Below are positions 1 through 31,031 of a DNA stretch of 64,000 nt, piece by piece (position 1 is the first letter of the stretch; every line of letters begins with the position of its first letter). The stretch is from assembly GCF_010728725.1 (NCBI RefSeq), contig NZ_AP022606.1, forward strand, positions 2,170,001 to 2,234,000, read 5' to 3'. Under the pieces are notes generated by a model. It was not told the DNA's origin and ran no database searches. It saw only the letters and a program-made list of their open reading frames with translations. Both the position numbers and the translations under genes were made by a program. Source of the DNA: Mycobacterium branderi (GTDB taxonomy: Bacteria; Actinomycetota; Actinomycetes; Mycobacteriales; Mycobacteriaceae).

Positions 1-1964
1 GCGAGCACTTCGGCGGCGCTCGCGGTGGCGGCAAGCCCGATGACGGTGCCGCCGTTGTTACGCCACGCTTCGGCGAGCGGGGCCATGGCGGTTGTTTTTC
101 CGGTGGCGGCCGGGGCGAGCGCGAGTTGAACGCGGGCGCCGGAGGTGGCCATTTCGCGGACGAGCGCGACTTGCCCATCATTGAGTTTGATGCCGTGTTT
201 GGCGTGGTGGTCCAGCAGCGCGAGGCGAATGCTGGTGTCGTCGACGACGCGGCCGCCGCGCCGCCCGGCGGCGGCCAGGATACGGCGCTCAGCGGCCATG
301 ATGTCGGCGCCGGTGTAAACGGTGGCATCGTGGCGGGTGTAGACGCTGGCGCCGCCGCGTCGGCGTAGCGCGGCGGGTTCGCCCATCTCGGTGTCGGCGT
401 GTGAGGTCAAGGCGATGCTGTGATCGCCGAGCGCGGCGGACACGATGCGATCCACAACATCGGGTCCGCCGACGTGGTCGGTGTAGCGCAGCAGGCGTTG
501 GGCCTCGGCACGCACATGGTTGATCTGCCAGTTCGCTCGGGTTTGGGAGACCGTGGCGATGACTTTGGCGGCCTGTTCGTACACCCACTTGTCGGTGATC
601 GCAACCCGCTGCCGGTCGGCTTGTTGGGTGACTTCGGCGATCATCGCGGTCAGTTCACGCTGACCGCCGACAACCTCGATCGCTTCGCCACGCCACATGT
701 GGCGCTGCTCAGCCAGAGAGCGTGGCTCGTGTTTGGCTTGCCGCGTATCCAGGGTGGCCCGCTGGGACAAGGCGACCATCTCGACGGCGGTGGGTTCGCG
801 GCCGTGCTCGACTTGAAACTCCTTGGCCAACTGGCCCACTCGATGCTCGATCGCACTTCGCCGTGACGACCACCGCTCAAGGAGCCTTGTCGGTATTCCG
901 ACAATTTCACGCACCGGCCGTTTGCCGGCTTTGGCGGCCACGGCGGCGAAGAGCACACCGACCTTCTCGATCAACAGGGCTTCGATGCGGGTGTTGTAGA
1001 ACTCCGAGGCCGCAACCTTGATCTTGTACAGCGGCTCACCGTCGAGGGCGAGCCAGCGGGGAATGCCATCGGGCCCAATGGCCAGTACTTTGTTGCTGAT
1101 CGCAACATGGGTGTGCAGGTTGGGGTCACCGGCGCGCGAGTCCCGGTGATCGAAGACCGCCGCGATCAACCCGGTGGTGTTGACCTGGGCGATGCCGTCG
1201 GCGCCCATCCGGGAAAAGCAAGCGTGTTCTTCAATGAAGGCAAGGGTTTCGGCGACGGCTTGATGGTGGCATTCCTCGATCTTGGTGGCGATCGAGCGCG
1301 GCGCGATGGCCCACAGCGCCGACACCGACTTGACCGGGGTGAATGTCAGGTCGTAGCCGGCAACCGCGGTGGTTTGCGAACGGATATGGCGGGCGATAAA
1401 CCCGGACAGTTCGCGCTCGTCGGCCGGTGCGCGACCGTGGGTTTCGGTGAACATGTCGCGCCCGACGGCGGTGCGGATGCGCGCGCGGACCTCGGGGTCC
1501 AGACTGGTGTTGCGCTCACGGCCCAACGTGGCGTTGTAATCACCGTAGGCGCCGCGCAACCGGCGGATGAACTCGTTTTCGGCGGCGTTGACGCGAAACG
1601 GCCGGCCCAGCCGGGCCGCGGCGATCGCACCGGCTTTGGCGACACCGAAGCCGGTCAGGTGCTTGGTGATTCGCTCGGCGTTGGGGTGCAGCCCTTCGCC
1701 GAACAGGGCTTTCATCTGCTCCTCGGTGACCTCGGAGCCCTGCCGAACCGACCACAGTTGGGCGATCAGCGGGTCGGACGGGTCGCGGGACACCGGGCGG
1801 CCGAGACCGGCCAGGCCGCGACCCATCCACCGGCCCGGGGTTTCACCTTTGGAGCTGTAGTAGTCGGCCAGGCCGGGACGGCCGCGGTGGCTGTCGTCAG
1901 CGGCGGCGACCTGCCGGATCAGGTAGACATACCCGTCCCCGGCGGTCAATTTGTGCAGACCCAT
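1..1964 (-). CDS. MobF-family conjugative relaxase-helicase (TrwC/TraA type), 3' end outside window
   Basis: The minus strand is open from an ATG at 1964 to the window edge, about 654 codons, with no stop. The N-terminus has the MobF layout: an early tyrosine pair (ADYYSSKG) and a metal-binding histidine triad at about H273, H284 and H286 (DHRD, then NLHTHV). A Walker A motif (ATGKTT, lysine near residue 623) opens the helicase domain just before the edge. Family proteins nick oriT, stay bound to the 5' end through the tyrosine, and unwind the transferred strand. The gene is divergent from a small HTH protein. It marks the left end as plasmid- or ICE-derived. An in-frame GTG one codon upstream is an alternative start. 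All plus-strand reading frames over this stretch are shadows. Confidence 0.88.
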   Translation of the reverse strand, partial: MGLHKLTAGDGYVYLIRQVAAADDSHRGRPGLADYYSSKGETPGRWMGRGLAGLGRPVSRDPSDPLIAQLWSVRQGSEVTEEQMKALFGEGLHPNAERITKHLTGFGVAKAGAIAAARLGRPFRVNAAENEFIRRLRGAYGDYNATLGRERNTSLDPEVRARIRTAVGRDMFTETHGRAPADERELSGFIARHIRSQTTAVAGYDLTFTPVKSVSALWAIAPRSIATKIEECHHQAVAETLAFIEEHACFSRMGADGIAQVNTTGLIAAVFDHRDSRAGDPNLHTHVAISNKVLAIGPDGIPRWLALDGEPLYKIKVAASEFYNTRIEALLIEKVGVLFAAVAAKAGKRPVREIVGIPTRLLERWSSRRSAIEHRVGQLAKEFQVEHGREPTAVEMVALSQRATLDTRQAKHEPRSLAEQRHMWRGEAIEVVGGQRELTAMIAEVTQQADRQRVAITDKWVYEQAAKVIATVSQTRANWQINHVRAEAQRLLRYTDHVGGPDVVDRIVSAALGDHSIALTSHADTEMGEPAALRRRGGASVYTRHDATVYTGADIMAAERRILAAAGRRGGRVVDDTSIRLALLDHHAKHGIKLNDGQVALVREMATSGARVQLALAPAATGKTTAMAPLAEAWRNNGGTVIGLAATASAAEVL

Positions 1965-2218
1965 CACCGCAAATCACCTGGGCCCGAAGCTATGGGCGGC
2001 CCGACCCTTACGCGACGGTGCGTTACCGTTTCGTGACCTGAATGCACTAGGTGTGGTCGGCGGTAGACGGTCGGTAGGCGGTTGTGGTGAGGGCGGCCTC
2101 AATGGCGGGCGGCTCCGGCCGGTGCGGTTCGGGTGTGGGCCGGTGCGGTAGGAGGTCGCGTGAGGTTTTTGGTTTCGGGTGCGGCGTAAGGGGTTTGGGG
2201 GGCTTAGCGTGTGGATCT
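1965..2218. other. Intergenic region between divergent transfer genes, candidate oriT/promoter region
   Basis: The 254 bp separate the relaxase from the divergent HTH gene. A small inverted repeat (ACGGT, 5-nt spacer, ACCGT) lies at 2015-2029. MobF relaxases often act at an oriT beside their own gene, so this is the natural place to look. The sequence itself shows no convincing nic site. Confidence 0.3.
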
Positions 2219-2725
2219 ATGGGCAATAGTGCAACGACGAAGGCGGCCCGGCGGGCCGCGCGGGAGGCCGCGGTGGCGGCCCAGGAGGAGCTGGCCCGGC
2301 GGATCCGGGCGAACGTGGAGGATTTGGCGACGTTCTTTTCGGCGCACGAGCGCGCCGAAGCGGTCGAGGAGTGGCTGGGCGAGCGGACGGCGGCGTTGCG
2401 CGAGCAGGCCGCGCAACGGCGCGCGCAGCAGCGCCGTCAGTGCGGTGCCGCGCTGGCGTCGATGCGCGATCGCGGCGAGAGTCTGCGGGAGATCGCCAAA
2501 ATGGCTGGGATTCCCGAAAAGTCGGTGCGCGAGCTGATCAAGACAGTCGATACGAGCGCAGCGCCGGGAGCGCCGGCCGAAGGCAACGGCGCCTCAGCCG
2601 AGGCGGCAAGGCCGGAACAGGCTGAAACGGTGACGGAACCAGGTGAAGTTGAGGCGGCGGGGCCGCCGCGCGGGTCCAGTGTGGAGGCGCCGACGGTGAC
2701 CGCGATGCCGGCAACGGCGCCGTAA
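2219..2725 (+). CDS. Small HTH protein divergent from relaxase, putative mobilisation accessory factor
   Basis: I start this 168-aa protein at ATG 2219 (MGNSATTKAARR). An upstream extension reads as low-complexity Gly/Cys/Arg sequence and is unlikely to be translated. Residues about 8-75 are Ala/Arg/Glu-rich and predicted helical. Residues about 82-105 (DRGESLREIAKMAGIPEKSV) look like a helix-turn-helix. The C-terminal 60 residues are Ala/Pro/Glu-rich and probably disordered. Its position across a short gap from a MobF relaxase suggests a DNA-binding partner or regulator of transfer. That role is inferred from context; I do not recognise a named family. Confidence 0.6.
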   Translation: MGNSATTKAARRAAREAAVAAQEELARRIRANVEDLATFFSAHERAEAVEEWLGERTAALREQAAQRRAQQRRQCGAALASMRDRGESLREIAKMAGIPEKSVRELIKTVDTSAAPGAPAEGNGASAEAARPEQAETVTEPGEVEAAGPPRGSSVEAPTVTAMPATAP

Positions 2726-3023
2726 CCCGCGAGTATCCGACCTTCGGGTTCGAATGTGTCAGTGACGGCGCGATGTATGAGTACGAGTCATGGGTTACAC
2801 ATGAGTCGCGTCATCGGTTACAGATTCACCGGCCATCGGCCAGGGTTCTGCTTTGGTTGCGCCGGTAGTTGTGGTGGGGGCGATGCGGTGTCCGGCGATG
2901 AGTTGGTTATCGGTTTTGCTGACGACGGTGACGGTCGGCGGTGACGAGGATGAGCACGGTTGTGCGACTCGCTTGCGTCCATGTCCTGCACCCAGGCGCA
3001 GCTCCGTTTTCGTCGTCGAACGC

Positions 3024-3155
3024 TGCGAGCGATCCCGCGATTCCGAGGCCCCGGACGGCTACCGCGACGGACTGGCCCTGTGCGTCATCGACTCGATCCA
3101 GTCGACCGGCGCGACGTACTCCAGCATCATCAGCCGTCAGGCCGTCCGTGGCTAG
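3024..3155 (+). pseudogene. N-terminal fragment of an actinobacterial hypothetical protein
   Basis: In the plus frame ending at 3155 the peptide PDGYRDGLALCVIDSIQSTG resembles the opening of a conserved actinobacterial hypothetical family (DxxYRxxLALCVIDSI). The reading stops after about 40 residues. The 2726-3277 stretch around it holds no other supportable gene. I read it as a truncated remnant; the family match is from memory and weak. Confidence 0.3.
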
Positions 3156-3277
3156 AGAAATTCAACCGTCGTACCTCTGAAGCCTTTGTCTAGCGACATT
3201 GTTTCGTGCTCAGAGATGTGCCCACGGATCGATCAGCCGATAGCCGATGGGCTGTTGCATCAGATGAAAACCGAGAC

Positions 3278-3305
3278 TTGATGGATATCCGCAGTTATCA
3301 ATCAA
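3278..3305. repeat. Inverted repeat with 8-bp spacer upstream of recombinase copy A, putative crossover site
   Basis: Arms TTGATGGATA (3278-3287) and TATCAATCAA (3296-3305) pair at 9 of 10 positions around the 8-nt spacer TCCGCAGT. Arms of 10-13 bp around a 6-8 bp centre are the standard architecture of a tyrosine-recombinase core site. A related repeat lies at the same distance upstream of recombinase copy B (28526-28555). Confidence 0.55.
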
Positions 3306-3317
3306 AAATCCCGCCTT

Positions 3318-3330
3318 TTCATCTGATGAA
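3318..3330. promoter_or_regulatory. Palindrome TTCATCTGATGAA, copy A
   Basis: This is a perfect 6+1+6 palindrome ending about 206 nt before the recombinase start codon. The identical 13-mer precedes copy B at 28500-28512 with the same spacing. It is probably an operator for the small HTH protein or an accessory recombinase arm site. A looser relative (GCATCAGATGAA) lies at about 3258. Confidence 0.5.
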
Positions 3331-3536
3331 TCACACCCGGGGCTTCGCTTCCGATTGGCGGTGGCCTTGCTCTGGTGATCAAATCCGTTGTTGATCTGGG
3401 GATTTGGACTCAGTTGGGGTAGGTCCGGGGTGCTCACCCGTGGGGTGCTGTCGACACGCCGGGGCAAGTCGCCTCAAATTGGCCCCAGCTACGTGCGCCG
3501 ATGTGGTAATGATTCACTGAATGATCCAATGATTCA

Positions 3537-4670
3537 TTGGATCAGACGGGTCTGGAGGCTGATTTGGCGGTCGATAACAGCGGTCGCGTGTACGTCATCG
3601 GTTCGGTTCCTGTACTACATCCGGAGGCCCAGACTGTCGACGAGATGCTCGAGGGTTGGCGCAATCAGCAAAGGTGCCGCAACTTGAGTCATGACACGAT
3701 CGCCGGGCGAGTGCGGCTCGTCGAGCGCTTCATCGAGCACACCAACGAATTCCCCTGGATGTGGACGCCGGCCTTGGTTGAGGAGTTCTTCAGCGATCTA
3801 CGGTCGGTGAAAAGACGCAGGCAGTCGACCGTGCGGGGCTACCAGAATGCGTTGCGATTGTTCTGTTCTTAATGTCAGCGACCCCGATTACGGTTGGGAT
3901 CGGGTGTGCGAACAGCGATTCGGCACACACCCGGCCCAGGAGTTTTTCGAATGGAACACCGCGGCACACGTGCAGGACAACGAGCAGTCCCCGACGAAGC
4001 GCGCGTTCACCAAACGAGAGCTGCAGGATTTCTTCGACCATGCCGACGACCAGGTGTCGCTGATCGCAGCCTCAACGCGTAAGGGCTGGCTACCGGCCGA
4101 CCGGGACGCGGCAATGTTCAGGGTCGCCTCCTCATACGGGCTGCGGTTCAACGAACTGCGCCATCTGCAGACCGTGGATTTCTCCGGCAACGTCCACGCC
4201 CGCGAGTTCGGCCGCTACGGCGTTGTTCAGATCCGCTACGGCAAGGCCAAGAAGGGATCCCCACACAAACGGCGCGGCGTGCTGACGGTCTTCAAGTGGA
4301 CTCCCGAGGTGATCGCCGATTGGCTTGCCCATGGCCAGCCGGGTATGACCGAGGGGATTGATCTATTCCCCAGCGAGCTAGGCGCGTTGGTCGCCGGAAA
4401 TACGCTGTTGCGCCGGTTCCGTCGGTATTGTCGCAATCTCGAGTTGCCAGATGGATTGGACCTGCACTCGCTGCGCCGCTCGTATGCCACCCATTTAATC
4501 GAAGACGGCTGGGATGCCAAGTTCGTCCAGGACCAGATGGGTCACGACATGCCAGCACGACGTCGCTGTATACCTGCGTGTCCAGCGACTACCGCGTCAG
4601 CACGTTGCGCCGGGTGTTGGACACCACCATCAACACCGCACTGTCGTTGGGGGAGGAGGAGAGTTCATGA
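3537..4670 (+). pseudogene. Tyrosine recombinase, copy A, broken by two frameshifts
   Basis: The sequence aligns end to end with the intact recombinase of copy B (27162-28292) and shares its TTG start in the same TGATTCATTGGAT context. Two indels break it. One extra base near 3871 turns the codon after FCS into TAA (intact copy: FCSYVSDPDYGW). One base is missing near 4546, inside the MGHxHAS motif, and moves the catalytic tyrosine segment (LYTCVSSDY) out of frame. The conserved arginine (GLRFNELR), lysine region and HSLRRSY motif are still readable in the middle frame at about 3870-4545. It cannot make a full enzyme unless frameshifting occurs. Confidence 0.85.
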
Positions 4671-5020
4671 AGCGGCGAGTCGACTACACCTGAAGATTGG
4701 CCGAGCTGATGGCCGCTCGTGGGATGTACAACAGTACCGATCTAATTCCTCTTCTTGTTGAGCGAGGGATCCAACTATCGCGGCCACAGGTGTATCGAGT
4801 GGTTCATCAACGCCACCCCGAACGGGTTTCGCTTCAAATGATCGCCGCACTGTGCGATATCTTGGGCTGCGGCGTAGACGATCTGGTCACCGTGACCGCG
4901 GCCGATGTCCGCCGACGCAAAGCATCCGCCGGCTCGCCGAGCGCGCCGAGGCCCAACGTGGTCGAGCTCACCAAAGCGGTGCGACCGCGCCGAGCCAGAG
5001 TGATCAGCGATGACGATTAG
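4668..5020 (+). pseudogene. Small Cro/C1-like HTH protein, copy A, early nonsense codon
   Basis: The original start, ATG 4668, gives MKRRVDYT and then TGA, where copy B has TGG (Trp9). From TTG 4697 the frame is open for 107 codons and matches copy B throughout, including the HTH segment (SRPQVYRVVHQR) and the basic tail (RPRRARV). The protein may survive through re-initiation, but the intended start is lost. In the intact module this small protein is encoded between recombinase and zinc-ribbon gene with short overlaps, so it probably regulates the module or directs the recombinase. Confidence 0.7.
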
Positions 5021-6521
5021 CCCCAACCGGCGCTCCACCAAACGGGGCCGCCCGCCGGTTATCGGTGAGCGGTTCCGCTGCAGCCGATGCCAGCGAATGG
5101 CCAACCAGCGCAGGGCGTCCTGGCCCGGCGAGCAACTGTGCTACAGCTGCTTCTACACAGCGATGCGCACTCGCGGGATCTGCCCCCGGTGCGGCCACAA
5201 CGGGGTGCTTCCCGGCCTGGGCAGCGACGCAGACCGGCAGCCGATCTGTTTATCGTGCGCAGGGATTCCCGCAGACTTCATCTGCCGAAGTTGCCAAACC
5301 GAAGGCAATTTCTACCGGCGCCGAACGTGTGCCCGTTGCGCCCTTCGTCAGGACCTGACCGCGTTGATAGTCGACAACGCTCAATGCCCTGAAGCCATCG
5401 CCCCGATCGTCGACGCGCTGTGCCGGGTCGAGCGGCCAGCCACCATCCTGAGCTGGAAGCGCTCGCCCCGCGTTCGGGAACTGCTGACCGGACTGGCCTG
5501 CGGGCAGATTCCGCTGACACACCAGGGTCTCGATAAAGCGGGTACCGACGGAGCCGTCAACCATCTGCGGAGTCTGCTCGAACACGCCGGCATCTTGGCT
5601 GCCCGCGACGAACCGCTGGCCCGGTTCGAGCATTGGCTCACCCAGAAACTCGAGGCGGTCACCCAACCGGCCGTGCGCGCCCCAGTGGAACAATTCGCCA
5701 CCTGGCATCACCTTCGTCGGCTACGCAGAGCATCCTTTCCAGGACAGAACTCCGATGCCGCCGCGCGAGACGCCAAACAAGAGATCACCGAGACGATCAA
5801 GTTTCTCACCCGGCTGCACAGCACACATAGCCGCACCCTGGCCAGCTGCCGACAACACGATGTCGATGAGTGGCTGGCATCGGGTCCGACCACCCGACGA
5901 AAGATCCGAAACCTGTTGGCCTGGGCCAAGAAAGCCCGGGTGAACAAGTCAGTGCAGATTACTCATCAGCAGCCTCCTCCCAGCAGCGCGCTCACCCAAG
6001 AACAGCGGCTGGCATGGCTTCGAGAACTTCTTACCGGAGATTCCGAGACCCTGACTTACCGTGTTGCGGGAAGCCTTCTGCTGCTGTTCGCTCAGCCCAT
6101 GACCAAGATCGCAGCACTACCGACATCGGCGATCACACTTGCGGAAAACGAAGTACGGATCACCCTGGCGCAAGAACCGATCCCCGTGCCGCGGCCGTTC
6201 GCAGACATGCTCGTCAACCACATGGGCAACCGACCGAATCTCCGAGCGACAGGTGGAGTCAAGGACAGCCCGTGGCTGTTTCCCAGTCTCCGGCCCGGCC
6301 GGCATCTTCGCCCACAAGACATCAGGGAAAGACTCGAACAGCTGGGCATCAATCTGCTTGGCGCGCGCAACACCACGTTGCAGAGCCTCGTTGCCTCCGC
6401 GCCAACGCCGTTGGTCGCCGAACTACTCGGCTACAGCTACAACACAGCCCAGCTCCACGCAGAGATCGCAGCCCAGCCCTGGGCCCGCTACGTGACCAAA
6501 ACAGCCGTCGGATCGAACTGA
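5010..6521 (+). CDS. Zinc-ribbon protein with degenerate recombinase-like C-terminus, copy A
   Basis: The protein has 503 aa. The first 115 residues carry paired cysteines (CSRCQ, CYSC, CPRCG, CLSC, CRSC, CARC), enough for three zinc ribbons. The middle is helical with an SPRVRELL segment. The C-terminal 180 residues follow the order of a tyrosine-recombinase core (LLLLFAQPMTKIAALP at the box I position, then SPWLFPSLRPGRHL), but lack the HxxR motif and the nucleophilic tyrosine context. It reads as a catalytically dead, DNA-binding recombinase relative. It starts 11 bp inside the preceding gene, as in copy B. It is the only gene of copy A that is intact. Family members are sometimes labelled Fis-like regulators; that label is not supported by what I see. 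Confidence 0.75.
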   Translation: MTISPNRRSTKRGRPPVIGERFRCSRCQRMANQRRASWPGEQLCYSCFYTAMRTRGICPRCGHNGVLPGLGSDADRQPICLSCAGIPADFICRSCQTEGNFYRRRTCARCALRQDLTALIVDNAQCPEAIAPIVDALCRVERPATILSWKRSPRVRELLTGLACGQIPLTHQGLDKAGTDGAVNHLRSLLEHAGILAARDEPLARFEHWLTQKLEAVTQPAVRAPVEQFATWHHLRRLRRASFPGQNSDAAARDAKQEITETIKFLTRLHSTHSRTLASCRQHDVDEWLASGPTTRRKIRNLLAWAKKARVNKSVQITHQQPPPSSALTQEQRLAWLRELLTGDSETLTYRVAGSLLLLFAQPMTKIAALPTSAITLAENEVRITLAQEPIPVPRPFADMLVNHMGNRPNLRATGGVKDSPWLFPSLRPGRHLRPQDIRERLEQLGINLLGARNTTLQSLVASAPTPLVAELLGYSYNTAQLHAEIAAQPWARYVTKTAVGSN

Positions 6522-6933
6522 CCCAGGATTTTATCCAGTCTGTGCTGCAGAGGTTTTGGCTTCTATCGCCAAACACCAGCAAACGGGACAGTGTCTTCGT
6601 AGAGCGATGACACCGACGCTACCCCGGGCACGCAACCAAGACGATCGGGCATCAACCGCTTGGCAGTGCTGAGCCCCGGCACCTTCCCGACACGACCGAA
6701 TACGGCGAGATTGAATACGGAGGGTTACCGGTATGCGCACCGGCGCGTCGCCCTGTGTCGACGGCGGGGGGCGGGGGTCAGGCGCTTTGTTCAAACGACA
6801 CGGGTATATCGTTGGAGCACACCATATTTGAGGCGCAGATTTACTGCGGGGGAGGCGTTGCGGTGGCGAGCGAAGCGTGGACACCAAACGTCTATTGGTG
6901 TACGCTGTCGGCGTCGTCTGAAAACTGATCACG
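6522..6933 (+). other. Stretch without a supportable gene between copy A and the IS21 element
   Basis: Only short, compositionally odd reading frames occur here. The longest plus frame with an ATG near 6733 gives about 32 residues. No tRNA or terminator was recognised. The right end of copy A presumably lies here, but I see no counterpart of the upstream inverted repeat. Confidence 0.4.
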
Positions 6934-6998: not shown

Positions 6999-8258
6999 TT
7001 GTTGGCTGTGGAGGACTGGGCTGAGATCCGCAGGTTGCACCGAGCGGAGGGGCTGCCGATCAAGACGATTGCCAAGACGCTGAAGATCTCGCGCAACACG
7101 GTGCGCTCCGCGCTGGCTTCCGATGCTCCGCCGAAGTATGTGCGCAAGCCGGCGGGGTCGGCGGTGGATGTGTTTGAGGATGCGATCCGTGCCGAGCTCA
7201 AGCAGGTGCCGACGATGCCGGCCACGGTCATCGCTGAGCGAGTCGGTTGGACGCGAGGGATGACGGTGTTCAAAGAACGTGTCCGCGAGTTGCGCCCGGC
7301 TTACCTGCCGCCGGATCCGGCGAGCCGCACGAGCTATGAGGCCGGTGATATCGGGCAGTGCGACTTGTGGTTTCCGCCAGTCACGATCCCGGTCGGGTAC
7401 GGGCAAAGACGCACCGCCACGCAGCTTCCGGTGCTGACCATGGCGTTGGGCTATTCGCGGTGGTTGTCGGGGATGCTGATCCCCTCGCGCCGTGCTGAGG
7501 ATCTATTCGCCGGCTGGTGGCAGCTGATCTGCGGACTCGGTGCGGTGCCGCGCACCCTGGTCTGGGATGGCGAAGGCGCGATCGGGCGGTGGCGATCGGG
7601 ACGCATCGAACTCACCGAGGACTGCCAGGCATTCCGCGGGGTGCTGGGGGCCAAGGTGGTGGTGCTCAAACCGGCCGAGCCGGAACACAACGGCATCATC
7701 GAACGGGCCCATGACTATCTGGAGCGGTCGTTTCTGCCGGGCCGAACCTTCAGCGGTCCCGGCGATTTCAACCACCAACTGCAGCACTGGCTGAACACCG
7801 TCAATGCGCGGACCCGCCGGGTGCTGGGATGTGCTCCGACCGACCGGATCGGCGCGGACCGCCAAGCGATGCTCACTTTGCCGCCGGTACCACCGGTGAC
7901 CGGTTGGCGTCACACCACCCGGTTGGCGCGCGATCACTACATCCGGTTGGACTCCAATGACTACTCGGTGCATCCGGGGGTGATCGGGCGGCGCATTGAA
8001 GTCGTCGCCGACCTCGACCGTGTCCAGGTGTTTTGTGAGGGCAAGGTGGTCGCCGACCATGAGCGGGTGTGGGCCTGGCATCAGACCATCACCGACCCCG
8101 AGCACCGCGCAGCCGCCAACATGCTGCGCCGCAACCGGATTGGCGCCCTGCGCCCGGTGCGTGAACCCGAGGACCCAATCACGGTCGAACAGCGGTCTTT
8201 GACCGACTACGACAGCGCGTTGGGTATCGACCTCGGCGAAGACGGGTTGGTGTCATGA
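6999..8258 (+). CDS. istA: IS21-family transposase IstA
   Basis: The 419-aa protein starts with an HTH (LPIKTIAKTLKISRNTVRSAL). An integrase-core DDE domain follows (DIGQCDLWFPP carrying the first Asp, LVWDGEGAI the second, EPEHNGIIERAHDYLE the Glu). It catalyses cut-and-join of the element. The TTG start at 6999 follows a purine-rich GAGAGGAGAAGGGAG ribosome site; GTG 7008 is an alternative. The stop overlaps the istB start by 4 bp, the usual translational coupling. Confidence 0.93.
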   Translation: MLAVEDWAEIRRLHRAEGLPIKTIAKTLKISRNTVRSALASDAPPKYVRKPAGSAVDVFEDAIRAELKQVPTMPATVIAERVGWTRGMTVFKERVRELRPAYLPPDPASRTSYEAGDIGQCDLWFPPVTIPVGYGQRRTATQLPVLTMALGYSRWLSGMLIPSRRAEDLFAGWWQLICGLGAVPRTLVWDGEGAIGRWRSGRIELTEDCQAFRGVLGAKVVVLKPAEPEHNGIIERAHDYLERSFLPGRTFSGPGDFNHQLQHWLNTVNARTRRVLGCAPTDRIGADRQAMLTLPPVPPVTGWRHTTRLARDHYIRLDSNDYSVHPGVIGRRIEVVADLDRVQVFCEGKVVADHERVWAWHQTITDPEHRAAANMLRRNRIGALRPVREPEDPITVEQRSLTDYDSALGIDLGEDGLVS

Positions 8259-9064
8259 CCACCAAAACACGGGCGACCGCGGTGTCATCGAACAACCGCG
8301 ACCTGACCGCCGAAATCAGCTTTCTCACCCGCGCCCTCAAAGCACCCACCCTGCGCGAAGCAGTCACACGACTGGCCGAGCGGGCCCGCGCCGAATCCTG
8401 GACCCATGAGGAGTTCCTGGTGGCCTGCCTGCAGCGCGAGGTTTCGGCCCGCGAATCCCACGGCGGCGAGGGCCGCATCCGCGCTGCCCGGTTCCCGTCC
8501 CGAAAATCGTTGGAGGAGTTCGACTTCGACCACGCCCGCGGACTCAAACGCGACACCATCGCCCACCTGGGCACCCTGGACTTCGTCGCCGCCCGTGACA
8601 ACCTCGTGTTCCTCGGCCCGCCGGGCACCGGCAAAACCCACCTTGCCATCGGCATCGCAATCCGCGCCTGCCAAGCCGGCCACCGCGTGCTGTTCGCCAC
8701 CGCCGCCGAATGGGTCGCCCGACTCGCCGAAGCCCACCACGCCGGACGACTCCAACAAGAACTCATCCGGCTGGGCCGCTACCCGCTGCTCGTCGTCGAC
8801 GAGGTCGGCTACATCCCGTTTGAACCTGAAGCCGCTAACTTGTTCTTCCAGCTGGTTTCCTCCCGCTACGAACGGGCCAGCCTGATCGTCACCTCCAACA
8901 AACCTTTCGGCCGCTGGGGCGAAGTGTTCGGCGACGACGTCGTGGCCGCCGCCATGATCGACCGACTCGTCCACCACGCCGAAGTCATCGCCCTCAAAGG
9001 CGACTCCTACCGCATCAAAGACCGCGACCTCGGGCGAGTCCCGGGATCAACCACCGACGAATGA
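8255..9064 (+). CDS. istB: IS21-family transposition ATPase IstB
   Basis: This 269-aa AAA+ protein has Walker A GPPGTGKTH and Walker B LLVVDEVGY, then the sensor segment LIVTSNKPFGRWGEVF. IstB binds target DNA and activates IstA. Length and motif order are normal. The gene is complete and followed directly by the nested right end of the element. Confidence 0.93.
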   Translation: MTTKTRATAVSSNNRDLTAEISFLTRALKAPTLREAVTRLAERARAESWTHEEFLVACLQREVSARESHGGEGRIRAARFPSRKSLEEFDFDHARGLKRDTIAHLGTLDFVAARDNLVFLGPPGTGKTHLAIGIAIRACQAGHRVLFATAAEWVARLAEAHHAGRLQQELIRLGRYPLLVVDEVGYIPFEPEAANLFFQLVSSRYERASLIVTSNKPFGRWGEVFGDDVVAAAMIDRLVHHAEVIALKGDSYRIKDRDLGRVPGSTTDE

Positions 9065-23304: not shown

Positions 23305-23532
23305 TCGATTTATGGAAGCAAGAGTTACCGGTAAAGCTGCATATTCGAACTTGTCGTATTCCCTCCGTCAATGGCCAGACTTGAGGGCGAGGCCTGCTCA
23401 AGCAGAGGAAGCTGTAGCTCGTCTGGGCGGGGGATGGCCCGTTGGTCCTCGTCTAGGCCGTTAGGTATTTGCTGTGCCAGCGCCGACGGCGCCGGGCGCG
23501 CCGTGAAGCGCCGAGTTTGGCCCGGGACAGCC

Positions 23533-24306
23533 TCAGTTCCGCAGCGAAGACAGGTTGAACATCACGCCCGTTGGGTCGGCCGCTGCCGCGAGGCGACCGT
23601 ACGGGGTGTCCTCAGCGGGCCGGAGCACGATCCCGGCGTTGTCGGTGATCACCTGCAGCGTCTTGTCGACGTCCTCGGCGCCGAAAAAGGTGGTCCACTG
23701 CGACGGCATACCTTCGGGCAGAATCTTCGCACCGTCCATCACGCCCAGCAGCTGCTGGTCACCGAACCATGCAGTGGTGTAGCGGAATTCGTCGGCTTCG
23801 GAGACCTGCTCGGTGCGCCAGCCGAAAACCTCGCAATAAAAGTCGATGGCGGCCCGATAGTCGCGCGTGGTCAACTGATGCCAGACCGGGGCGCCCGCCT
23901 CGCCAATCACTTCGAAGCCACGGACATTCAATGGCTGCCACAAGCGAAACGCAGCGCCTGATGGGTCGGTCGCCGCGCCCATCACGCCTTTGGCCGGCAG
24001 CTGCATCGGCGGGAGGTGCAGCGAAGCACCGGCCGCAGTCAGGGCCGACACGGTGGCGTCGATATCGGCGGTGTGGAAGTAGGTGGACCACCCATCCGGG
24101 AAGGGCCACCGGCGGACGTTGGCCACCATGCCCGCGACCGGGTGCCCGTTCTTGGCGGCGGTGATGTAGCCGCCGACCGCCGGCCCCCCCGAGTCGAACG
24201 TCCAGCCGAACACCGTGCCGTAGAAATCTTGGGCCTGGTCGAGGTCGGATGATGTCAGATCGATCCAGGTCGGAGCGCCCAGCGGCGCGCCGTCACAAAT
24301 GGGCAC
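23533..24306 (-). CDS. Tandem-VOC glyoxalase-family protein (TB27.3/CFP30B-like)
   Basis: GTG 24306 is chosen because AAGGAAG lies 5 nt upstream, giving 257 aa. Two vicinal-oxygen-chelate repeats follow each other: GAPTWIDLTSSDLDQAQDFY with VFGWTFD, and GAPVWHQLTTRDYRAAIDFY with VFGWRTE. Each ends with AxxDPxGxxFxLW/NL. This is the build of the mycobacterial 27-kDa glyoxalase-like antigen family (Rv0577). Metal-ligand His/Glu residues are only partly present, so catalytic activity is uncertain. It is divergent from the methyltransferase at 24429. Confidence 0.8.
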   Translation of the reverse strand: MPICDGAPLGAPTWIDLTSSDLDQAQDFYGTVFGWTFDSGGPAVGGYITAAKNGHPVAGMVANVRRWPFPDGWSTYFHTADIDATVSALTAAGASLHLPPMQLPAKGVMGAATDPSGAAFRLWQPLNVRGFEVIGEAGAPVWHQLTTRDYRAAIDFYCEVFGWRTEQVSEADEFRYTTAWFGDQQLLGVMDGAKILPEGMPSQWTTFFGAEDVDKTLQVITDNAGIVLRPAEDTPYGRLAAAADPTGVMFNLSSLRN

Positions 24307-24428
24307 AGTGGCTTCCTTGGCGTGCGGGATGGAATCCGGCGGAGGCTTCACGATTATCGACTGTCACCAGGTCGGCGTCAAAGGCCAAAAGCTCCCTGAC
24401 GGTTTGGGTCGTGAGGCAGACTTCTCGC

Positions 24429-25271
24429 ATGACGACAACGGGATCCATCGCGAACGTCTCCGACACGGCCCATTTGATTGCGGCGCACCGAGCGATGGAA
24501 TCGGCGCGCCCGGATGCACTTTTTCACGATGCTCTCGCCGATCGGCTCGCCGGTGATAAGGGCCAGGCGATAGTCGCGGCGGCTCCGCGAATACTGCGCA
24601 ACAGCTGGCCGGTTGTGGCGCGCACCAGAATCATTGACGACATTATCGGTCAGGCGATCGGACAGGGCTGTGACCGGGTGCTCAATCTGGCGGCGGGTCT
24701 GGATACTCGTCCTTACCGGCTCGACTTGAGTCCTGACTTCACCTGGGTGGAGGCTGATCTGCCGGGGCTGCTCACCGACAAGGAGCGGTTGCTCGCCGAC
24801 GAGAAGGCGCGCTGCCGGTTGACGCGCCATGCCGTCGACCTTGCTGATCCGCGTGCCCGTGACGCGTTCTTGAATGAGGCGCTCACCGGCGCCACCAAGG
24901 CGCTGGTTCTGACCGAGGGCCTGCTGATCTACCTGGACCACCGCGATGTCGACGCCTTATCGGCCGCCTTGAAGCGGCCCGAAGTGGCGTGGTGGATGTT
25001 TGATCTCTTCTCTCCAGGTCTTCGCCGCCGAATGATCAAGAAATCCGCCACCATGCTAGACAGCGCGCCGTTCAAATTTGCCCCGGCGGACGGCGTGGCG
25101 TACTTCGAAAACCTCGGCTGGACAACCCTCGACGTGGAATCGGTGTTGGCGGGCGCGTATCGATTTCATAGGTTGCCGCCATTGATGCGGCTTGTGGCGC
25201 ACCTACCGCTACCCAATCCGCGCAAGCCCGGCAACATGCTGTGGAATGCGGTCGTCCGCATGTCACACTGA
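24429..25271 (+). CDS. LCM-family SAM-dependent methyltransferase
   Basis: I take ATG 24429 (280 aa). Longer starts would overlap the divergent glyoxalase gene and read poorly. The order is typical of the expanded mycobacterial family of leucine-carboxylmethyl-transferase-like proteins: VSDTAHLIAAHRAMESARPD, then RTRIIDDIIGQAI, the SAM motif VLNLAAGLDTRPYRL, WVEADLPGLLTDKERLL, LVLTEGLLIYLD, and a C-terminal FENLGWTTLDVESV. Substrates of these enzymes are mostly unknown; some act on lipids or polyketides. The gene lies between the copy B module and the glyoxalase gene and could be an older chromosomal gene carried along. Confidence 0.82.
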   Translation: MTTTGSIANVSDTAHLIAAHRAMESARPDALFHDALADRLAGDKGQAIVAAAPRILRNSWPVVARTRIIDDIIGQAIGQGCDRVLNLAAGLDTRPYRLDLSPDFTWVEADLPGLLTDKERLLADEKARCRLTRHAVDLADPRARDAFLNEALTGATKALVLTEGLLIYLDHRDVDALSAALKRPEVAWWMFDLFSPGLRRRMIKKSATMLDSAPFKFAPADGVAYFENLGWTTLDVESVLAGAYRFHRLPPLMRLVAHLPLPNPRKPGNMLWNAVVRMSH

Positions 25272-25334
25272 TGTCGCGCCCCTTCCTGCGCCGGGTTGGA
25301 CGGTTAATTTGGTCGGGAACTCGTTGCGGCGCAA

Positions 25335-26831
25335 TCAACGTGTGATGTACCGCGACCACGGTTGAGCCGCCAGTTGGGCGTGCCGCTGAACGCAGTTGTC
25401 GCTGAAGCCTAAAAGCTTGGCCACGATAGGAGGGGGCATCTCAGCGACAAGCGTGCGCAGCGCCGAGTTGCGTGCAGCGAGGACACTGACGCCTGCGTGA
25501 GTGAGTTCATGTGCCAAAGTCATTGCGTCCAGGTGCTTTCCGGGCCGATGGGCTGGGAATAGCCACGGGTTGGGGACCGTACCGCCACCCGTTCGGAGGT
25601 TGGGTCTGCGGTGTACGAGCTCGACAAGAATGCTTGCGAAGGGTTCCGGCACCGGCACGGGTTCGTTCCCGAGGGATATACGCACTTCGTCGGTAGTCAC
25701 CGCGACCGCGGTGGCTGGCAGTGCGGCGATTCTGACCAGTGGTTGTGCGTAGAGCAGCAGCAGAAGGCCGGCGACTCGATAGTGGAGGGATCCCGGGTTG
25801 CCGGTGAGGAGCGCCTTGATCCAGGTCAACCGTTGCTCCTGGGTGAGCATAGGAACGTGCTTGGGCTGTTGGTTGACGAATCGCACCGTGGTGTTGATCT
25901 TGCTTTTGTTGGCCCAGGCGAAGAACGCGCGGGTTTTGTGGCGTGTCGTGGGTCCGCTGGCGAGCCATTCGTCGAGATCCTGCTGACGGCAGTCGGCTGC
26001 GGTCCGATGGTGGGTGTCGTGCAGCCAGGTGAGGAGTTTGATCGTCTCGGTCACTTGCTGTTTGGCCGATTGCATCGATCTTTCAGAGGCTTGCCCTGGT
26101 GTGGAGTTGCCGCGCAGCCGGCGCAGATGGTGCCAGGTGGCGAACTGTTCAACGGGAGCTCGGACGGCCGGCTCGGTGATGGTATCGAGTTTGGCGGCAA
26201 GCCAGACCTCGAAGCGTGCTAGATATTCATCGCGGTCGGGGAGTAGACCATGGTGCTCGAGCAGGCTGCGCAGATGCGAAACGACTCGAGTGCGTTGACT
26301 GACGGCGTCGAGGCCGTCGTGGCTGAGGGGAATTTCGCCGCTCGAAAGGCCGGACAGCAGTGCCCGCACTCTGGGGGAGCGTTTCCAGGTGAGGATGCTC
26401 TCGGGGCGCTCGACCCCACAGAGGATTTCGACGATCGTGCTCATCGTGGCCGGATCTGCGGCCCCGTCGACGATCAGCGCCGTCAGGTCATCACGCAGGG
26501 CGCAGCGTGCACATCGACCGCCACGGTAAATCTGGCCTTCGGTGTCACAGGTTCGGCATCGGTAGTCCTCGGGGATGCCCGCGCATGTCAGACATACCGG
26601 CCGCGGATCGATATGGTTGGCGCGTCCAGGTAGCAGGCCATCGTGTCCGCAGAAGGGGCAGACGCCGTGGGTGCGCATCGCCGTGTAAAAGCAGCTGTTG
26701 CACAGTTGCTCGCCAGGCCAGGACGGGGTGCGGTTCTGGACCGACATGCGGCCGCAGCGTGTACAGGCGATTTCTCCCTTGACGTGAGGTCGTCCGCGTC
26801 CGCGAGCGTGGCCGCTACGGTTATTCGTCAT
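25335..26831 (-). CDS. Zinc-ribbon protein with degenerate recombinase-like C-terminus, copy B
   Basis: The 498-aa protein is colinear with the one at 5010-6521. The six cysteine pairs (CTRCG, CNSC, CPFCG, CLTC, CRTC, CARC) at about residues 23-117 predict three zinc ribbons. A conserved middle follows (ERPESILTWKRSPRVRALLS; RAPVEQFATWHHLRRLRG). The C-terminal part mimics a tyrosine-recombinase core (LLLLYAQPLVRIAALPATAV; NPWLFPAHRPGKHL), but the HxxR motif reads AARNSALR and no nucleophilic tyrosine follows a GH motif. It starts 11 bp before the regulator gene ends, so translation is coupled. I infer a targeting or architectural partner of the recombinase encoded two genes upstream. Confidence 0.78.
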   Translation of the reverse strand: MTNNRSGHARGRGRPHVKGEIACTRCGRMSVQNRTPSWPGEQLCNSCFYTAMRTHGVCPFCGHDGLLPGRANHIDPRPVCLTCAGIPEDYRCRTCDTEGQIYRGGRCARCALRDDLTALIVDGAADPATMSTIVEILCGVERPESILTWKRSPRVRALLSGLSSGEIPLSHDGLDAVSQRTRVVSHLRSLLEHHGLLPDRDEYLARFEVWLAAKLDTITEPAVRAPVEQFATWHHLRRLRGNSTPGQASERSMQSAKQQVTETIKLLTWLHDTHHRTAADCRQQDLDEWLASGPTTRHKTRAFFAWANKSKINTTVRFVNQQPKHVPMLTQEQRLTWIKALLTGNPGSLHYRVAGLLLLLYAQPLVRIAALPATAVAVTTDEVRISLGNEPVPVPEPFASILVELVHRRPNLRTGGGTVPNPWLFPAHRPGKHLDAMTLAHELTHAGVSVLAARNSALRTLVAEMPPPIVAKLLGFSDNCVQRHAQLAAQPWSRYITR

Positions 26832-27165
26832 CGCGGATCACCCGTGCCCGGCGCGGGCGCACCGATTTGTTGAGATCCACGACATTGGGAGCAGAGGCTG
26901 TGGCTGAGGCGGCTTTCTTGCGCCGCACATCAGTGGCGGTGACGGTAACCAAGTCCTCGACTCCGCAGCCGAAGATGTCACACAACGCGGCGATCATTTG
27001 CAGTGAAACCCGCTCTGGCCGTTGGTGAACGACTCGATACACTTGCGGACGCGACAACTGGATGCCGCGTTCGGCAAGGCGGGGAATCAGCTCGGTGCTG
27101 TTGTGCATCCCGTGGGCGGCCATGATTTCGGAAAGCCGCCACGCATAGTCGACTCGCCGCTTCAT
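26821..27165 (-). CDS. Small Cro/C1-type HTH protein, copy B
   Basis: The 114-aa protein begins at ATG 27165, overlapping the recombinase stop (ATGA). Residues 8-75 form a five-helix Cro/C1 domain: WRLSEIMAAHGMHNSTELIP, GIQLSRPQVYRVVHQRPERV as recognition segment, and LQMIAALCDIFGCGVEDLV. The tail is basic (RRKKA; VRPRRARV). It probably controls the module through the palindromes upstream of the recombinase. It could also act as a directionality factor, as its gene is fixed between the two recombinase-type genes in both copies. Confidence 0.82.
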   Translation of the reverse strand: MKRRVDYAWRLSEIMAAHGMHNSTELIPRLAERGIQLSRPQVYRVVHQRPERVSLQMIAALCDIFGCGVEDLVTVTATDVRRKKAASATASAPNVVDLNKSVRPRRARVIRDDE

Positions 27166-28292
27166 GAGGACTCCTCACCCAACGCAAGAGCATCGGCGAT
27201 AGTGGCATCGAGCACCCGGCGCAGGGTTCGAGTGCGAAAATCACTGGACACGCAAGTGTAAAGCGCTGTGGTACTTGCATGTTCGTGGCCCATTTGATGC
27301 TGCACGAACATCGGATCCCAGCCATCTTCAATAAGATGGGTGGCATAGGAGCGGCGCAACGAGTGGATATCGAGCCCCGCCGATAACTCGAGATCAGTGC
27401 AGTAGCGGCGAAACCGCCGCAACAGGGTGTCTTCGGAGACCAAGGCTCCGCGCTCGCTGGGGAACAGATCAATGCCGTCATCCATATTGGGCTGCCCGTA
27501 GGCCAGCCAGTCACCGATGACCTCGGGTGTCCAATCGAAAACCGTCAGCACACTACGCCTTTTGTGCGGCGAACCCTTCTTGGCCTTGCCATAGCGCACG
27601 TGAACCAGGCCGTAGCGGCCGAACTCGCGGCCATGCGGATTACGAGCGAAGTCCACCGTCTGCAAATGGCGTAGCTCGTTAAACCGTAGGCCATAGGAGT
27701 AGGCCAGCTTAAACATCACTGAATCGCGGTAGGCCGGTAACCAGCCCTTCCGGGCGGAGGCGGCGATCAGCGCCACCCGGTCATCGGCGTGATCGAAGAA
27801 GTCCTGCAACTCGCGCTTGGTGAACGCTCGTTTGGTCGGCGCTTGCTCGTTGTCCTGGACGTGCGTGGCAGTGTTCCACTCGAAAAACACCTGGGCGGGA
27901 TGGGTACTAAACCGCTGCTCGCACAACCGATCCCAGCCATAGTCGGGATCGCTGACGTAAGAACAAAACAGCCGCAGCGCGTTCTGATAACCGCGGATCG
28001 TCGACTGCCTACGTCCGGACACCGAGCGCAGGTCGCTGAAGAACTCCTCAACCATCGCCGGCGTCCACGTCCACGGAAACTCATTCGTGTAGGAGATGAA
28101 CCGCTCCACCAGCCGAATCCGGCCCTCGATCGTGTCATGCGCCAAGTTCCGGCACAATTGCTGGTTACGCCAACCCTCCAGCATCTCCTGCACCGTCTGG
28201 ACTTCTGGATGCAGCAGCGGAACCGAACCCACGACGTACACGCGGCCACTCTTGTCGACGGCCAAAACGACCTCCACAACGGTCTCATCCAA
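27162..28292 (-). CDS. Tyrosine recombinase (phage-integrase family), copy B, intact
   Basis: The 376-aa enzyme has a SAM-like core-binding domain (residues about 32-115) and a catalytic domain with all active-site residues: Arg203 (GLRFNELR), the lysine region YGKAKKGS (235-241), His310 and Arg313 (HSLRRSY), His336 (MGHEHAS) and nucleophile Tyr345 (LYTCVS). The start is TTG 28292, also used by copy A. Directly upstream are TGATTCA-type repeats and, at about 208 and 234 bp, the palindrome and inverted repeat shared with copy A. It should cut and rejoin DNA at such a repeat, moving or inverting the module. Confidence 0.9.
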   Translation of the reverse strand: MDETVVEVVLAVDKSGRVYVVGSVPLLHPEVQTVQEMLEGWRNQQLCRNLAHDTIEGRIRLVERFISYTNEFPWTWTPAMVEEFFSDLRSVSGRRQSTIRGYQNALRLFCSYVSDPDYGWDRLCEQRFSTHPAQVFFEWNTATHVQDNEQAPTKRAFTKRELQDFFDHADDRVALIAASARKGWLPAYRDSVMFKLAYSYGLRFNELRHLQTVDFARNPHGREFGRYGLVHVRYGKAKKGSPHKRRSVLTVFDWTPEVIGDWLAYGQPNMDDGIDLFPSERGALVSEDTLLRRFRRYCTDLELSAGLDIHSLRRSYATHLIEDGWDPMFVQHQMGHEHASTTALYTCVSSDFRTRTLRRVLDATIADALALGEESS

Positions 28293-28499
28293 TGAATCAT
28301 TGAATCACCTGATGAATCAATACCACATCGGTACAGGTCCGTCCAGCCCATCGGAGCCGACATGTTGTGCGTGCCGCCGGTGCGCCACCTCAAGCAACCA
28401 CCGCGCGCACTGCCCTGATGACCTCAAACCAGCTGCTCGAAGCCAGTTTTCGTGTGAGCTGATCGACTCAGCGGCCGTGCCGCGAAGAGGCGGGATTGA

Positions 28500-28512
28500 T
28501 TCATCTGATGAA
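28500..28512. promoter_or_regulatory. Palindrome TTCATCTGATGAA, copy B
   Basis: Identical to the 13-mer at 3318-3330 and at the same distance (about 208 nt) from the recombinase start. The preservation of this site while flanking sequence has diverged argues for a function such as operator or recombinase arm site. Confidence 0.5.
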
Positions 28513-28525
28513 ATATGCGGTACTT

Positions 28526-28555
28526 TTTCATGGATATTGTAGATTATCCATGAAA
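28526..28555. repeat. Perfect 11-bp inverted repeat with 8-bp spacer, putative crossover site of copy B
   Basis: Arms TTTCATGGATA (28526-28536) and TATCCATGAAA (28545-28555) flank TTGTAGAT. Arm and spacer lengths fit a tyrosine-recombinase core. Position relative to the recombinase start (about 234 bp) equals that of the related repeat in copy A. Confidence 0.6.
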
Positions 28556-29961: not shown

Positions 29962-30357
29962 ATGCCCGTCTTGACCGCCTCAGCAGCACAGCGACTCGAC
30001 GACGAGGCGGCGACGCGTTCGATCCGCGAGGTCGCCGCGTACTTGCAGGACGCGGTGGGTCAGCGGGTGGCCGCCGCCCTTGGGGGGCTGGCCGACGCTA
30101 AGCAAATCGGCCGCTACGCCCGCGAGAGCGGTCCTGAGCCCCACGGCGCGACCGAACGCCGGCTGCGCGAAGGCTACAAAGTCGTGAAAATGATCGTCGA
30201 CGCCTACGACGCCAAGACAGCGCGCGCGTGGCTGTTCGGCACTAACACGCGGCTAGATGACCGCGCGCCGATCGAGGTGCTCGGCGCCGCGACCGACACC
30301 GCGCAGTTCGCCATGGTTGTACGCGCCGCGCGGCAGGTCGCCAGCTTTCAGTCGTGA
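29962..30357 (+). CDS. Xre/MbcA/ParS-type antitoxin of a RES toxin
   Basis: The 131-aa protein follows GGAGATGTG 5 nt before ATG 29962. The N-terminal part is an Xre-like HTH (SIREVAAYLQDAVGQRVAAA; DAKQIGRYARESGPEPHGAT). The C-terminal part is the toxin-binding domain (REGYKVVKMIVDAYDAKTAR, AWLFGTNTRLDDRAPIEVLG) that inserts a helix into the RES active site. It overlaps the toxin gene by 4 bp. It should neutralise the toxin and repress the operon. Confidence 0.88.
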   Translation: MPVLTASAAQRLDDEAATRSIREVAAYLQDAVGQRVAAALGGLADAKQIGRYARESGPEPHGATERRLREGYKVVKMIVDAYDAKTARAWLFGTNTRLDDRAPIEVLGAATDTAQFAMVVRAARQVASFQS

Positions 30358-31031
30358 CCCAAAAGCCCAGCGACCTGCCAGCTCTGTGGCGGGTGGGCTA
30401 CTACGCCGATCCGTTCGGCTTCACCCCGTTGGATCTTTATTCGTTCAACCACCGGTTTGACGACATCCACCACCGATTCCGCACGCTCTACTGCGCCGCA
30501 TTGCCGGAAACGTGTCTGCGCGAGGTACTCGCTGACTTTCGCCCCGACCTCGACGCGATGCGCCGCCACGTTGAGCGCTATGGGCCTGAGGCCGCCGACG
30601 ACTTCACACCGGCGCCGGTGACCGCTAGGTGGCGCGCACAGCACGTCCTCGTTCCCGTCGATCTGCGGCTCGACGGCCCCCTCATCGATCTCACCGACTT
30701 GTCCACCCGCCAGAAGATCGAGGAACGTCACATCGAACTGCTGGTCGAGCACGGCCTGGAACACCTCGATCTACACGAGATCACAACAAGCCGCCGCGTG
30801 ATCACCCAGACGATCGCCGCGGACCTATTCGACCGAGGCGCCAGTGCCGTGCGCTTTCCGTCTCGCCTGGACGGCAACCCGTGCGTTGCGCTTTTCGAAA
30901 AGCGTGGCACCGTCAGCGCGGCCGGCGACCCCATCGCACTCACCGACCCACCGCCCGAAGCGCTCGCAACGGTTGCCGCGGCATGGGGGCTGGTGCTGGA
31001 GCCCGCGGCCGCAGCCAACTACGACAACTGA
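30354..31031 (+). CDS. RES-domain toxin (NAD+-degrading family)
   Basis: The 225-aa protein starts GTG 30354 inside the antitoxin stop. It has the three name-giving residues of the RES family: Arg13 (LWRVGYYADPFGFTPL), Glu57 (CLREVLADF) and a Ser in the C-terminal SRLDGNPCVALF segment. Known relatives (MbcT, ParT, Res) consume NAD+ by phosphorolysis or hydrolysis, or ADP-ribosylate a host enzyme. The pair could stabilise the island or abort infection. Confidence 0.88.
   Translation: MTQKPSDLPALWRVGYYADPFGFTPLDLYSFNHRFDDIHHRFRTLYCAALPETCLREVLADFRPDLDAMRRHVERYGPEAADDFTPAPVTARWRAQHVLVPVDLRLDGPLIDLTDLSTRQKIEERHIELLVEHGLEHLDLHEITTSRRVITQTIAADLFDRGASAVRFPSRLDGNPCVALFEKRGTVSAAGDPIALTDPPPEALATVAAAWGLVLEPAAAANYDN

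Follow-up and report, generated by a model that had tools for sequence, protein, structure and literature searches.

Trio-encoding mobile cassettes of actinobacteria that probably collect foreign genes at the edge of dif

Introduction

A 64,000-nt stretch of the Mycobacterium branderi genome (NZ_AP022606.1, positions 2,170,001-2,234,000; here called the window, to whose positions all coordinates refer unless a contig or locus is named) contains a minus-strand trio of overlapping genes for a tyrosine recombinase (INT), a Cro/C1-type helix-turn-helix DNA-binding protein (HTH) and a six-CxxC zinc-ribbon protein (ZNR). The locus raises the question of what such a trio moves, and to where; the initial annotation had proposed a self-contained mobile or inverting unit at 25335-28555. 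The comparisons reported here make it very likely that INT-HTH-ZNR acts as the mobilisation module in a family of mobile cassettes that insert site-specifically at the edge of dif. This is the site at which XerCD resolves chromosome dimers in most circular bacterial chromosomes, and a known landing place for elements that borrow XerCD.

At the level of sequence, the ends, the target, one exact insertion point, tandem arrays, cassettes without the module and one circle with a tandem pair could be read. These probably describe an actinobacterial gene-capture platform at dif: a cassette-borne trio would insert circles at the outer edge of dif or of dif-like sites on plasmids. Integron-like rows of 0.1-42 kb would grow on either side, made up of cassettes of which many have no recombinase genes, with defence, toxin-antitoxin and metabolic genes as cargo, while dif stays usable.

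Results

The trio and its proteins

The genes follow one another in the order INT, HTH, ZNR, with overlaps of 4 bp (INT/HTH) and 11 bp (HTH/ZNR). These overlaps, the catalytic residues of the recombinase and the CxxC pairs were verified as first described. INT carries the complete R-K-HxxR-H-Y set of tyrosine recombinases. A reading of motifs gives R203, K236, H310, R313, H336 and Y345, none of which varies across 14 aligned sequences. Among solved structures, XerD entries come nearest to INT by sequence. The six CxxC pairs of ZNR (C23/26, 44/47, 58/61, 80/83, 92/95 and 107/110) are conserved, and no family in Pfam, PHROGs or NCBIfam scored above its cut-off for this protein. In an AlphaFold model, residues ~219-498 of ZNR match the core-binding and catalytic domain fold of XerA, XerH and XerD, whereas the tyrosine and most catalytic residues are missing according to a motif reading of the alignment, in a part where the model is weak. 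ZNR thus appears to have a tyrosine-recombinase fold whose catalytic residues were lost. The earlier claim of a single catalytic protein therefore stands for INT, the only trio protein with the full set, but ZNR is not unrelated to recombinases.

The same order was found in 40 of 43 related loci from GTDB genomes, INT being partial at some contig edges; L054 and L055 start inside the ZNR gene at a contig edge, and L056 holds a part of ZNR only. The co-occurrence check proposed with the initial annotation thus came out in its favour. The closest copies found were mycobacterial. Of 72,556 plasmid records, 243 contain ZNR relatives, often annotated 'recombinase XerD' and foremost from Streptomyces, Rhodococcus and Arthrobacter; within the genus, ZNR was located in 21 of 148 sampled genomes (24 places). 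A strict dif-plus-left-end pattern, searched across the order, matched in 5 of 397 genomes from four genera, with 0 matches for the control. In the M. nebraskense copy (L014) a 4-kb insertion, probably a transposon, lies within the recombinase gene at 1512-5522, with a short overlap of ~9 bp.

A second copy of the trio, also noted initially, lies inverted at ~3.3-6.7 kb of the window; its aligned stretches are 73-78% alike to the first, and the element that contains it (element 2) extends over ~3306-6733. Its recombinase frame is broken and its HTH gene has an early stop, so only the first copy is intact.

The left end and its target

All copies inspected but two (35 of 37; the exceptions are L021 and L043) carry the motif TCATCNGATGAA or a close variant ~190-230 nt upstream of INT. 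It is preceded by the palindrome GCCGATAAnnnnnnTTATGTCAA in most copies and by TGGATAAnnnnnnTTATCCA in others. In the window the TTTCATCAGATGAATCA motif lies at 28497-28513 and a related motif at 28283-28319, both upstream palindromes of the trio. Two palindromic sites had been reported in front of the genes; both are present, but one of them (28527-28554) is a dif-like target and not part of the element.

Of 32 copies, 29 have a dif-like site at a distance of 231-269 nt upstream of INT, as against 3 of 862 control windows. The copies tested were 28 of the 43 loci, L058, L059 and the two of the window; the other 15 loci, which have no intact left region, were left out, and L021, whose start is near a contig edge, was scored as a miss. 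On reading, L044 also has a dif-like site, with a shorter spacer. Most target sites share the form of the Frankia dif, given as CACGCCGATAATGCACATTATGTCAAGT in an excerpt of PMC3025954, and judged by sequence the GCCGATAAnnnnnnTTATGTCAA form is dif.

The M. branderi genome consists of a 5.1 Mb contig (C1) and a 0.86 Mb contig (C2). On C2 the same left end as in the window stands beside a different palindrome; the palindrome is therefore the target and not the element. The C2 palindrome is probably the plasmid's own dimer-resolution site, together with an Xer-like recombinase gene (L063:6305-7480) that was seen to begin ~25 bp from it. On the chromosome, two trio-less cassettes stand in tandem after a dif variant at C1:3889050, which lies ~226 kb from the point opposite dnaA. 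Weak dif-like matches in this genome numbered 113, against 64 for the reversed pattern; only C1:3889050, picked for its sequence, was used. Another candidate, C1:2750733, was not adopted as the chromosomal dif because C1:3889050 is nearer to the known form and adjoins an element end.

Eight more plasmid copies, taken from other genera or from subfamilies at a greater distance, were also examined. An exact dif is present in three and a near match in two (a 7-nt spacer in L195, one base off in L198); the remaining three, two from Streptomyces and one disrupted by an insertion sequence, showed no dif-like site. Where ZNR and an exact dif share a contig, all 11 places counted by hand are within 15 kb of it: nine are downstream on the strand of dif, and two (G226 and G423, of a subfamily 32% identical) are on the other side and the opposite strand. 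Of the other 13 ZNR places, three are in the M. branderi genome; among the ten inspected, the left end adjoins a dif-like site in four, none was seen in three, and three are on contigs that end too early.

Elements in the opposite orientation were also seen on the other (XerC) side of dif (L036:2806-4242; G226:C1:2483608-2486910), and at some dif sites what appears to be a left-end motif in inverted form lies ~30 nt to the left (e.g. L180:181-231), so dif can carry cassettes on both sides. A second type of left end, near GTAAGTTGGTTATTCGCATGYRATGCGAATACGT, was observed directly after right ends (L024, L037, L166, L173) or after dif (L198), and mixes with the first in the same arrays.

The right end and the extent of element 1

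The single-element contigs L016, L029, L031 and L032 end in RAATAYnnnGnnTTACCRGTA, within one base. This right-end pattern, GAATAYGSNGNNTTACCRGTA, occurs twice in the window, at 23326-23346 (minus strand) and 6713-6733 (plus strand). In 100 shuffled windows neither the palindrome pattern (up to 2 mismatches) nor the right-end pattern (up to 1 mismatch) gave a match. Element 1, the element with the intact trio, therefore spans ~23326-28525 and includes a methyltransferase and a glyoxalase gene; the bounds first given to the unit do not hold, as its right end falls outside them. These ~2 kb of DNA may have been gained within element 1, or may be an adjoining cassette that has lost its left end. 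Similarity to L014 and L049 ceases at the end of the ZNR gene (25335-25342), which suggested a boundary there; this was rejected because the right-end 21-mer comes 83 bp later in those loci, and at 23326 in the window.

Circle, tandem pair and insertion point

In Paenarthrobacter ureafaciens AT, a 4,712-bp circular record named 'pD' comprises the trio plus three other genes. Two tandem copies of the element, 4,714 bp apart, are present on plasmid pA of this strain. The left flank, the tandem junction, the circle junction and the right flank jointly fix the ends. As the circle junction lacks two bases (AC) of the tandem junction, pD does not simply represent a collapsed tandem repeat. Overlapping contig ends (at least 15 nt), sought as a sign of circles, were not found among the loci examined.

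One pair of sites gives the insertion point (a slash marks the junction). The empty site, in G475, reads ACGCCGATAAGACACATTATGTCAGATA/ATATCCTGG, i.e. ...TTATGTCAGATA/ATATCC. In G471 the same dif is followed by /GAATACTG (...TTATGTCAGATA/GAATAC), and 18.7 kb further on GGGTTACCAGTA/ATATCCTGG restores the flank (/ATATCC), which is 98.7% identical between the two genomes over 228 nt. As read from this pair, the insertion point is the outer edge of dif, whose 28 bp are left whole. No dif was found in the right end, the tandem junction, the circle junction or the right flank of the filled site.

Arrays downstream of dif

The 148 genomes of the genus were surveyed with the exact dif pattern and the right-end pattern, with reversed patterns as the control. 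Exact dif was present in 130 genomes and right ends in 45 (72 places); the reversed patterns gave 0. When a right end shares its contig with an exact dif, it is on the strand of dif and 136-42002 bp downstream in 46 of 47 cases, from 28 genomes. On contigs known to exceed 4 Mb (n=12), 15 of 16 right ends, counted by hand, follow this rule. Right ends were also commoner alongside ZNR (E <= 1e-60): 13 of 21 genomes with ZNR have them and 32 of 127 without it (again by hand).

In the 45-kb row L173-L175, 15 right ends were counted with up to 2 mismatches allowed; after ten of these the next left end comes ~12 nt later. Over the fetched arrays, without L181 and L182 as near-duplicates of L178, a right end passed directly into a canonical left end in 18 of 62 cases (control, 9 of 2,847). 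Most fetched stretches (26 of 33) lack a trio, which may lie elsewhere in the genome; in G412 it is ~9 kb beyond the array stretch, beside a dif variant. In L162, L163, L178 and L181, though not in L167, the cassette next to dif is the one with the trio; L173 and L174 contain trio fragments. In Mycobacterium colombiense GF28 (L017), the trio and further right and left ends were seen downstream of dif.

The cargo scan covered 135 of 183 open reading frames, chosen by length and by third-position GC content (GC3), with L161, L163-L166, L182 and L183 excluded. These are open-reading-frame calls, not verified genes, and include three trio sets. Among the top 25 families per scan were PemK/MazF toxins (4), PIN domains (3), TetR regulators (3), hydrolases and dehydrogenases, and there were matches to Lamassu-type and other defence models. 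The scan covered the arrays alone, and no enrichment is claimed.

Discussion

A proposed mechanism for dif-edge insertion

The most likely mechanism, as far as sequence can indicate one, is a conservative site-specific recombination between a circle junction (right end to left end) and the edge of dif. A cassette would start with a left end, made up of ~14 nt and then TTTCATCNGATGAATCA, and finish with a right end near GAATAYGSNGNNTTACCRGTA; it would leave as a circle in which the right end abuts the left end, and would re-enter at the outer edge of the chromosomal dif or of a plasmid dif-like resolution site, with dif staying whole. INT would perform all strand cutting, ZNR may serve as a catalytically dead recombinase-fold partner that aids site recognition, and HTH would regulate or assist; cassettes without the module would be moved in trans. 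The right-end terminus TTACCRGTA, found in 56 of at least 64 right ends in a search aimed at that form, differs when written as TTACCGGTA by one base from TTATCGGTA, which is the outward reading of the XerC arm in several dif sites. It may thus substitute for that arm, so that each insertion would remake the edge and each junction would be a new target for the next cassette.

Several observations weigh against this reading. Three of the 32 copies failed the dif-like test, and no dif-like site was found in the two Streptomyces linear-plasmid copies, in three of the ten further ZNR places inspected, or at the left end of two divergent trio copies in the M. branderi genome itself, L064 (G000:C2:273991-277855) and L065 (G000:C1:4892907-4896597), whose INT is 40-43% identical. 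Among the 47 right ends that share a contig with exact dif, the sole exception, in G450, is far from it, and 25 of the 72 right ends have no exact dif in reach (14 on other contigs, 11 in genomes lacking it). Just 18 of 62 right ends lead directly into a canonical left end. Only the right flank of the empty and filled sites is near-identical, the left being 78% alike over 127 nt, and assembly may have produced the 4,712-bp circle. The ZNR model is of poor quality over its last 40 residues, and a profile comparison of ZNR with INT (hhalign) found no relation (probability 1.5%), so the link between ZNR and recombinases rests on the predicted fold. L064 and L065 represent another target specificity within the family; these two and the Streptomyces copies limit dif targeting to a part of it. 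One of L064 and L065 was seen to sit inside a gene that reads like yraN.

An ordinary transposon of the Tn554 kind, with a preference for palindromic or terminus DNA, is an improbable alternative. Arrays would then be serial insertions, and module-less cassettes decayed copies. Like the cassettes here, Tn554 has a three-gene transposition module (TnpA, TnpB, TnpC) headed by a tyrosine recombinase, inserts directionally at one preferred site and lacks true terminal inverted repeats. Remnants do occur among the present elements, such as a 150-nt left end on C2. However, module-less cassettes hold different genes between recognisable ends, as in L173-L175, and decay by itself would not yield clean ends around new toxin-antitoxin, Lamassu-type defence and metabolic genes. 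Tn554 also has two active recombinases, where the present trio has one and a zinc-ribbon protein with a degenerate fold that lacks the tyrosine (by motif reading, in the weak part of the model); the target here, moreover, is dif, with tandem module-less cassettes. Tn554 is mentioned in excerpts of PMC8138268 and PMC8371274.

Still less probable are IMEX-type passengers moved at dif by host XerCD, with the trio as regulators or cargo. The location at dif, near the terminus, is that of LME-1 and other IMEX, and the excerpts of two papers describe integration of Legionella LME-1 at dif by the host recombinase (PMC9765430) and mycobacterial XerCD acting on cassettes flanked by a putative M. tuberculosis dif (PMC5364183). 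According to the same part of PMC9765430, though, LME-1 carries a dif-like att and its integration leaves dif and a modified dif at the two ends, whereas here dif is a mere neighbour on one side and is missing from the right flank and the junctions. The cut, furthermore, falls on the outer edge of dif, outside the central spacer, and INT itself is of full length, with catalytic residues that do not vary. A unit confined to 25.3-28.6 kb, inverting or mobile, can be dismissed as scarcely credible. It is favoured by the two copies of opposite orientation in the window, 22 kb from each other, and by relatives whose right end comes at most 90 bp after ZNR (L014, L016, L059); against it stand right ends at 23326 and 6733, dif-like targets, and circle and tandem forms elsewhere. 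Mobility, as first proposed, is supported; inversion was rejected, as no inverted pair of recombination sites was seen.

Relation to known systems

The dif-edge cassettes share a feature with each of several systems, IMEX, pdif modules, Tn554, RIT, integrons and SCC among them, and differ from each in a defining one. The Acinetobacter dif modules (pdif) are gene modules linked to Xer sites on plasmids and chromosomes which, in the part of PMC6449649 consulted, have pdif sites on both sides. Integrons also align cassettes in rows at one anchor through a tyrosine recombinase, but here the recombinase travels inside the cassette, and INT scored 46.9 bits with the integron integrase model TIGR02249, whose curated cut-off is 265. 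Staphylococcal cassette chromosome (SCC) elements likewise form tandem cassettes at one conserved chromosomal site, some without a recombinase; they use serine recombinases (ccr) and another site, whereas INT is a PF00589 tyrosine recombinase. Recombinase-in-trio (RIT) elements are three-gene modules with a tyrosine recombinase, described with three recombinases in an excerpt of PMC8138268; here only INT has catalytic residues, which upholds the initial separation from RIT. The gamma-mobile-trio is another three-gene module with a tyrosine recombinase, and its GmtY model (NF040693) gave 23.4 bits against a cut-off of 340. Tn5053/Tn402 transposons also seek plasmid resolution sites, but they are DDE transposons and their targets are the res sites of serine resolvases.

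No description of such dif-edge arrays was found in a literature search that covered open papers, with most subscription papers and all preprints outside its scope, and the rows seem to represent a previously undescribed means of gathering foreign genes. The cassettes would bring their own recombination system, distinct from XerCD, which would read dif without consuming it and stack cassettes there. Integrons are rare in actinobacteria, and such rows would give these bacteria an integron-like gene store at the replication terminus. The exact ends would allow detection of otherwise nameless islands, and their presence on both plasmids and chromosomes suggests a route of cassette swapping. They also raise the question of how a live recombinase, a dead zinc-ribbon one and an HTH protein find the edge of a site that belongs to another recombinase pair.

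Other features of the window

The features of both elements are collected in Table 1.

Table 1. Positions of the two elements, their genes and their candidate targets in the window ("no chance match" refers to the 100 shuffles)
Feature	Position	Strand	Remarks
Element 1
Dif-like palindrome TTCATGGATAATCTACAATATCCATGAA, target (host side)	28527..28554	-	no chance match
Left end, AAGTACCGCATAT to TTTCATCAGATGAATCA	28497..28525	-	start as in single-element contig L016; conserved in relatives
INT, tyrosine recombinase	27162..28292	-	376 aa, TTG start, intact; PF00589, 9.4e-21
HTH, Cro/C1-type DNA-binding protein (HTH_26)	26821..27165	-	114 aa; PF13443, 8e-15
ZNR, six-CxxC zinc-ribbon protein, predicted degenerate tyrosine-recombinase fold	25335..26831	-	498 aa
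Cargo, LCM-family methyltransferase	24249..25271	+	PF04072, 7.8e-29; between left and right ends
Cargo, glyoxalase (VOC) family protein	23533..24351	-	PF00903, 2.6e-23
Right end GAATATGCAGCTTTACCGGTA	23326..23346	-	no chance match; variants of the 21-mer end L016, L029, L031 and L032
Element 2
Dif-like site TTGATGGATATCCGCAGTTATCAATCAA	3278..3305	+	palindrome pattern, no chance match
Left end	3306..3333	+	motif TTTCATCTGATGAATCA at 3317; first base uncertain by 1-2 nt
Recombinase gene, broken	3537..4670	+	one internal TAA and frame changes
HTH gene	4667..5020	+	early in-frame stop if the start is the equivalent ATG (reading of sequence)
ZNR gene, open	5010..6521	+	503 aa, 60% identical
Right end GAATACGGAGGGTTACCGGTA	6713..6733	+	right-end pattern, no chance match

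Two further gene pairs were seen beside the elements. Just past the right end of element 2, between both elements, two genes at 6999-9064 read like istA and istB of the IS21 type. Beside element 1, a RES-domain protein (30354-31031) and a small preceding gene without a Pfam match (region 29962-31031) are probably a RES-Xre toxin-antitoxin pair.

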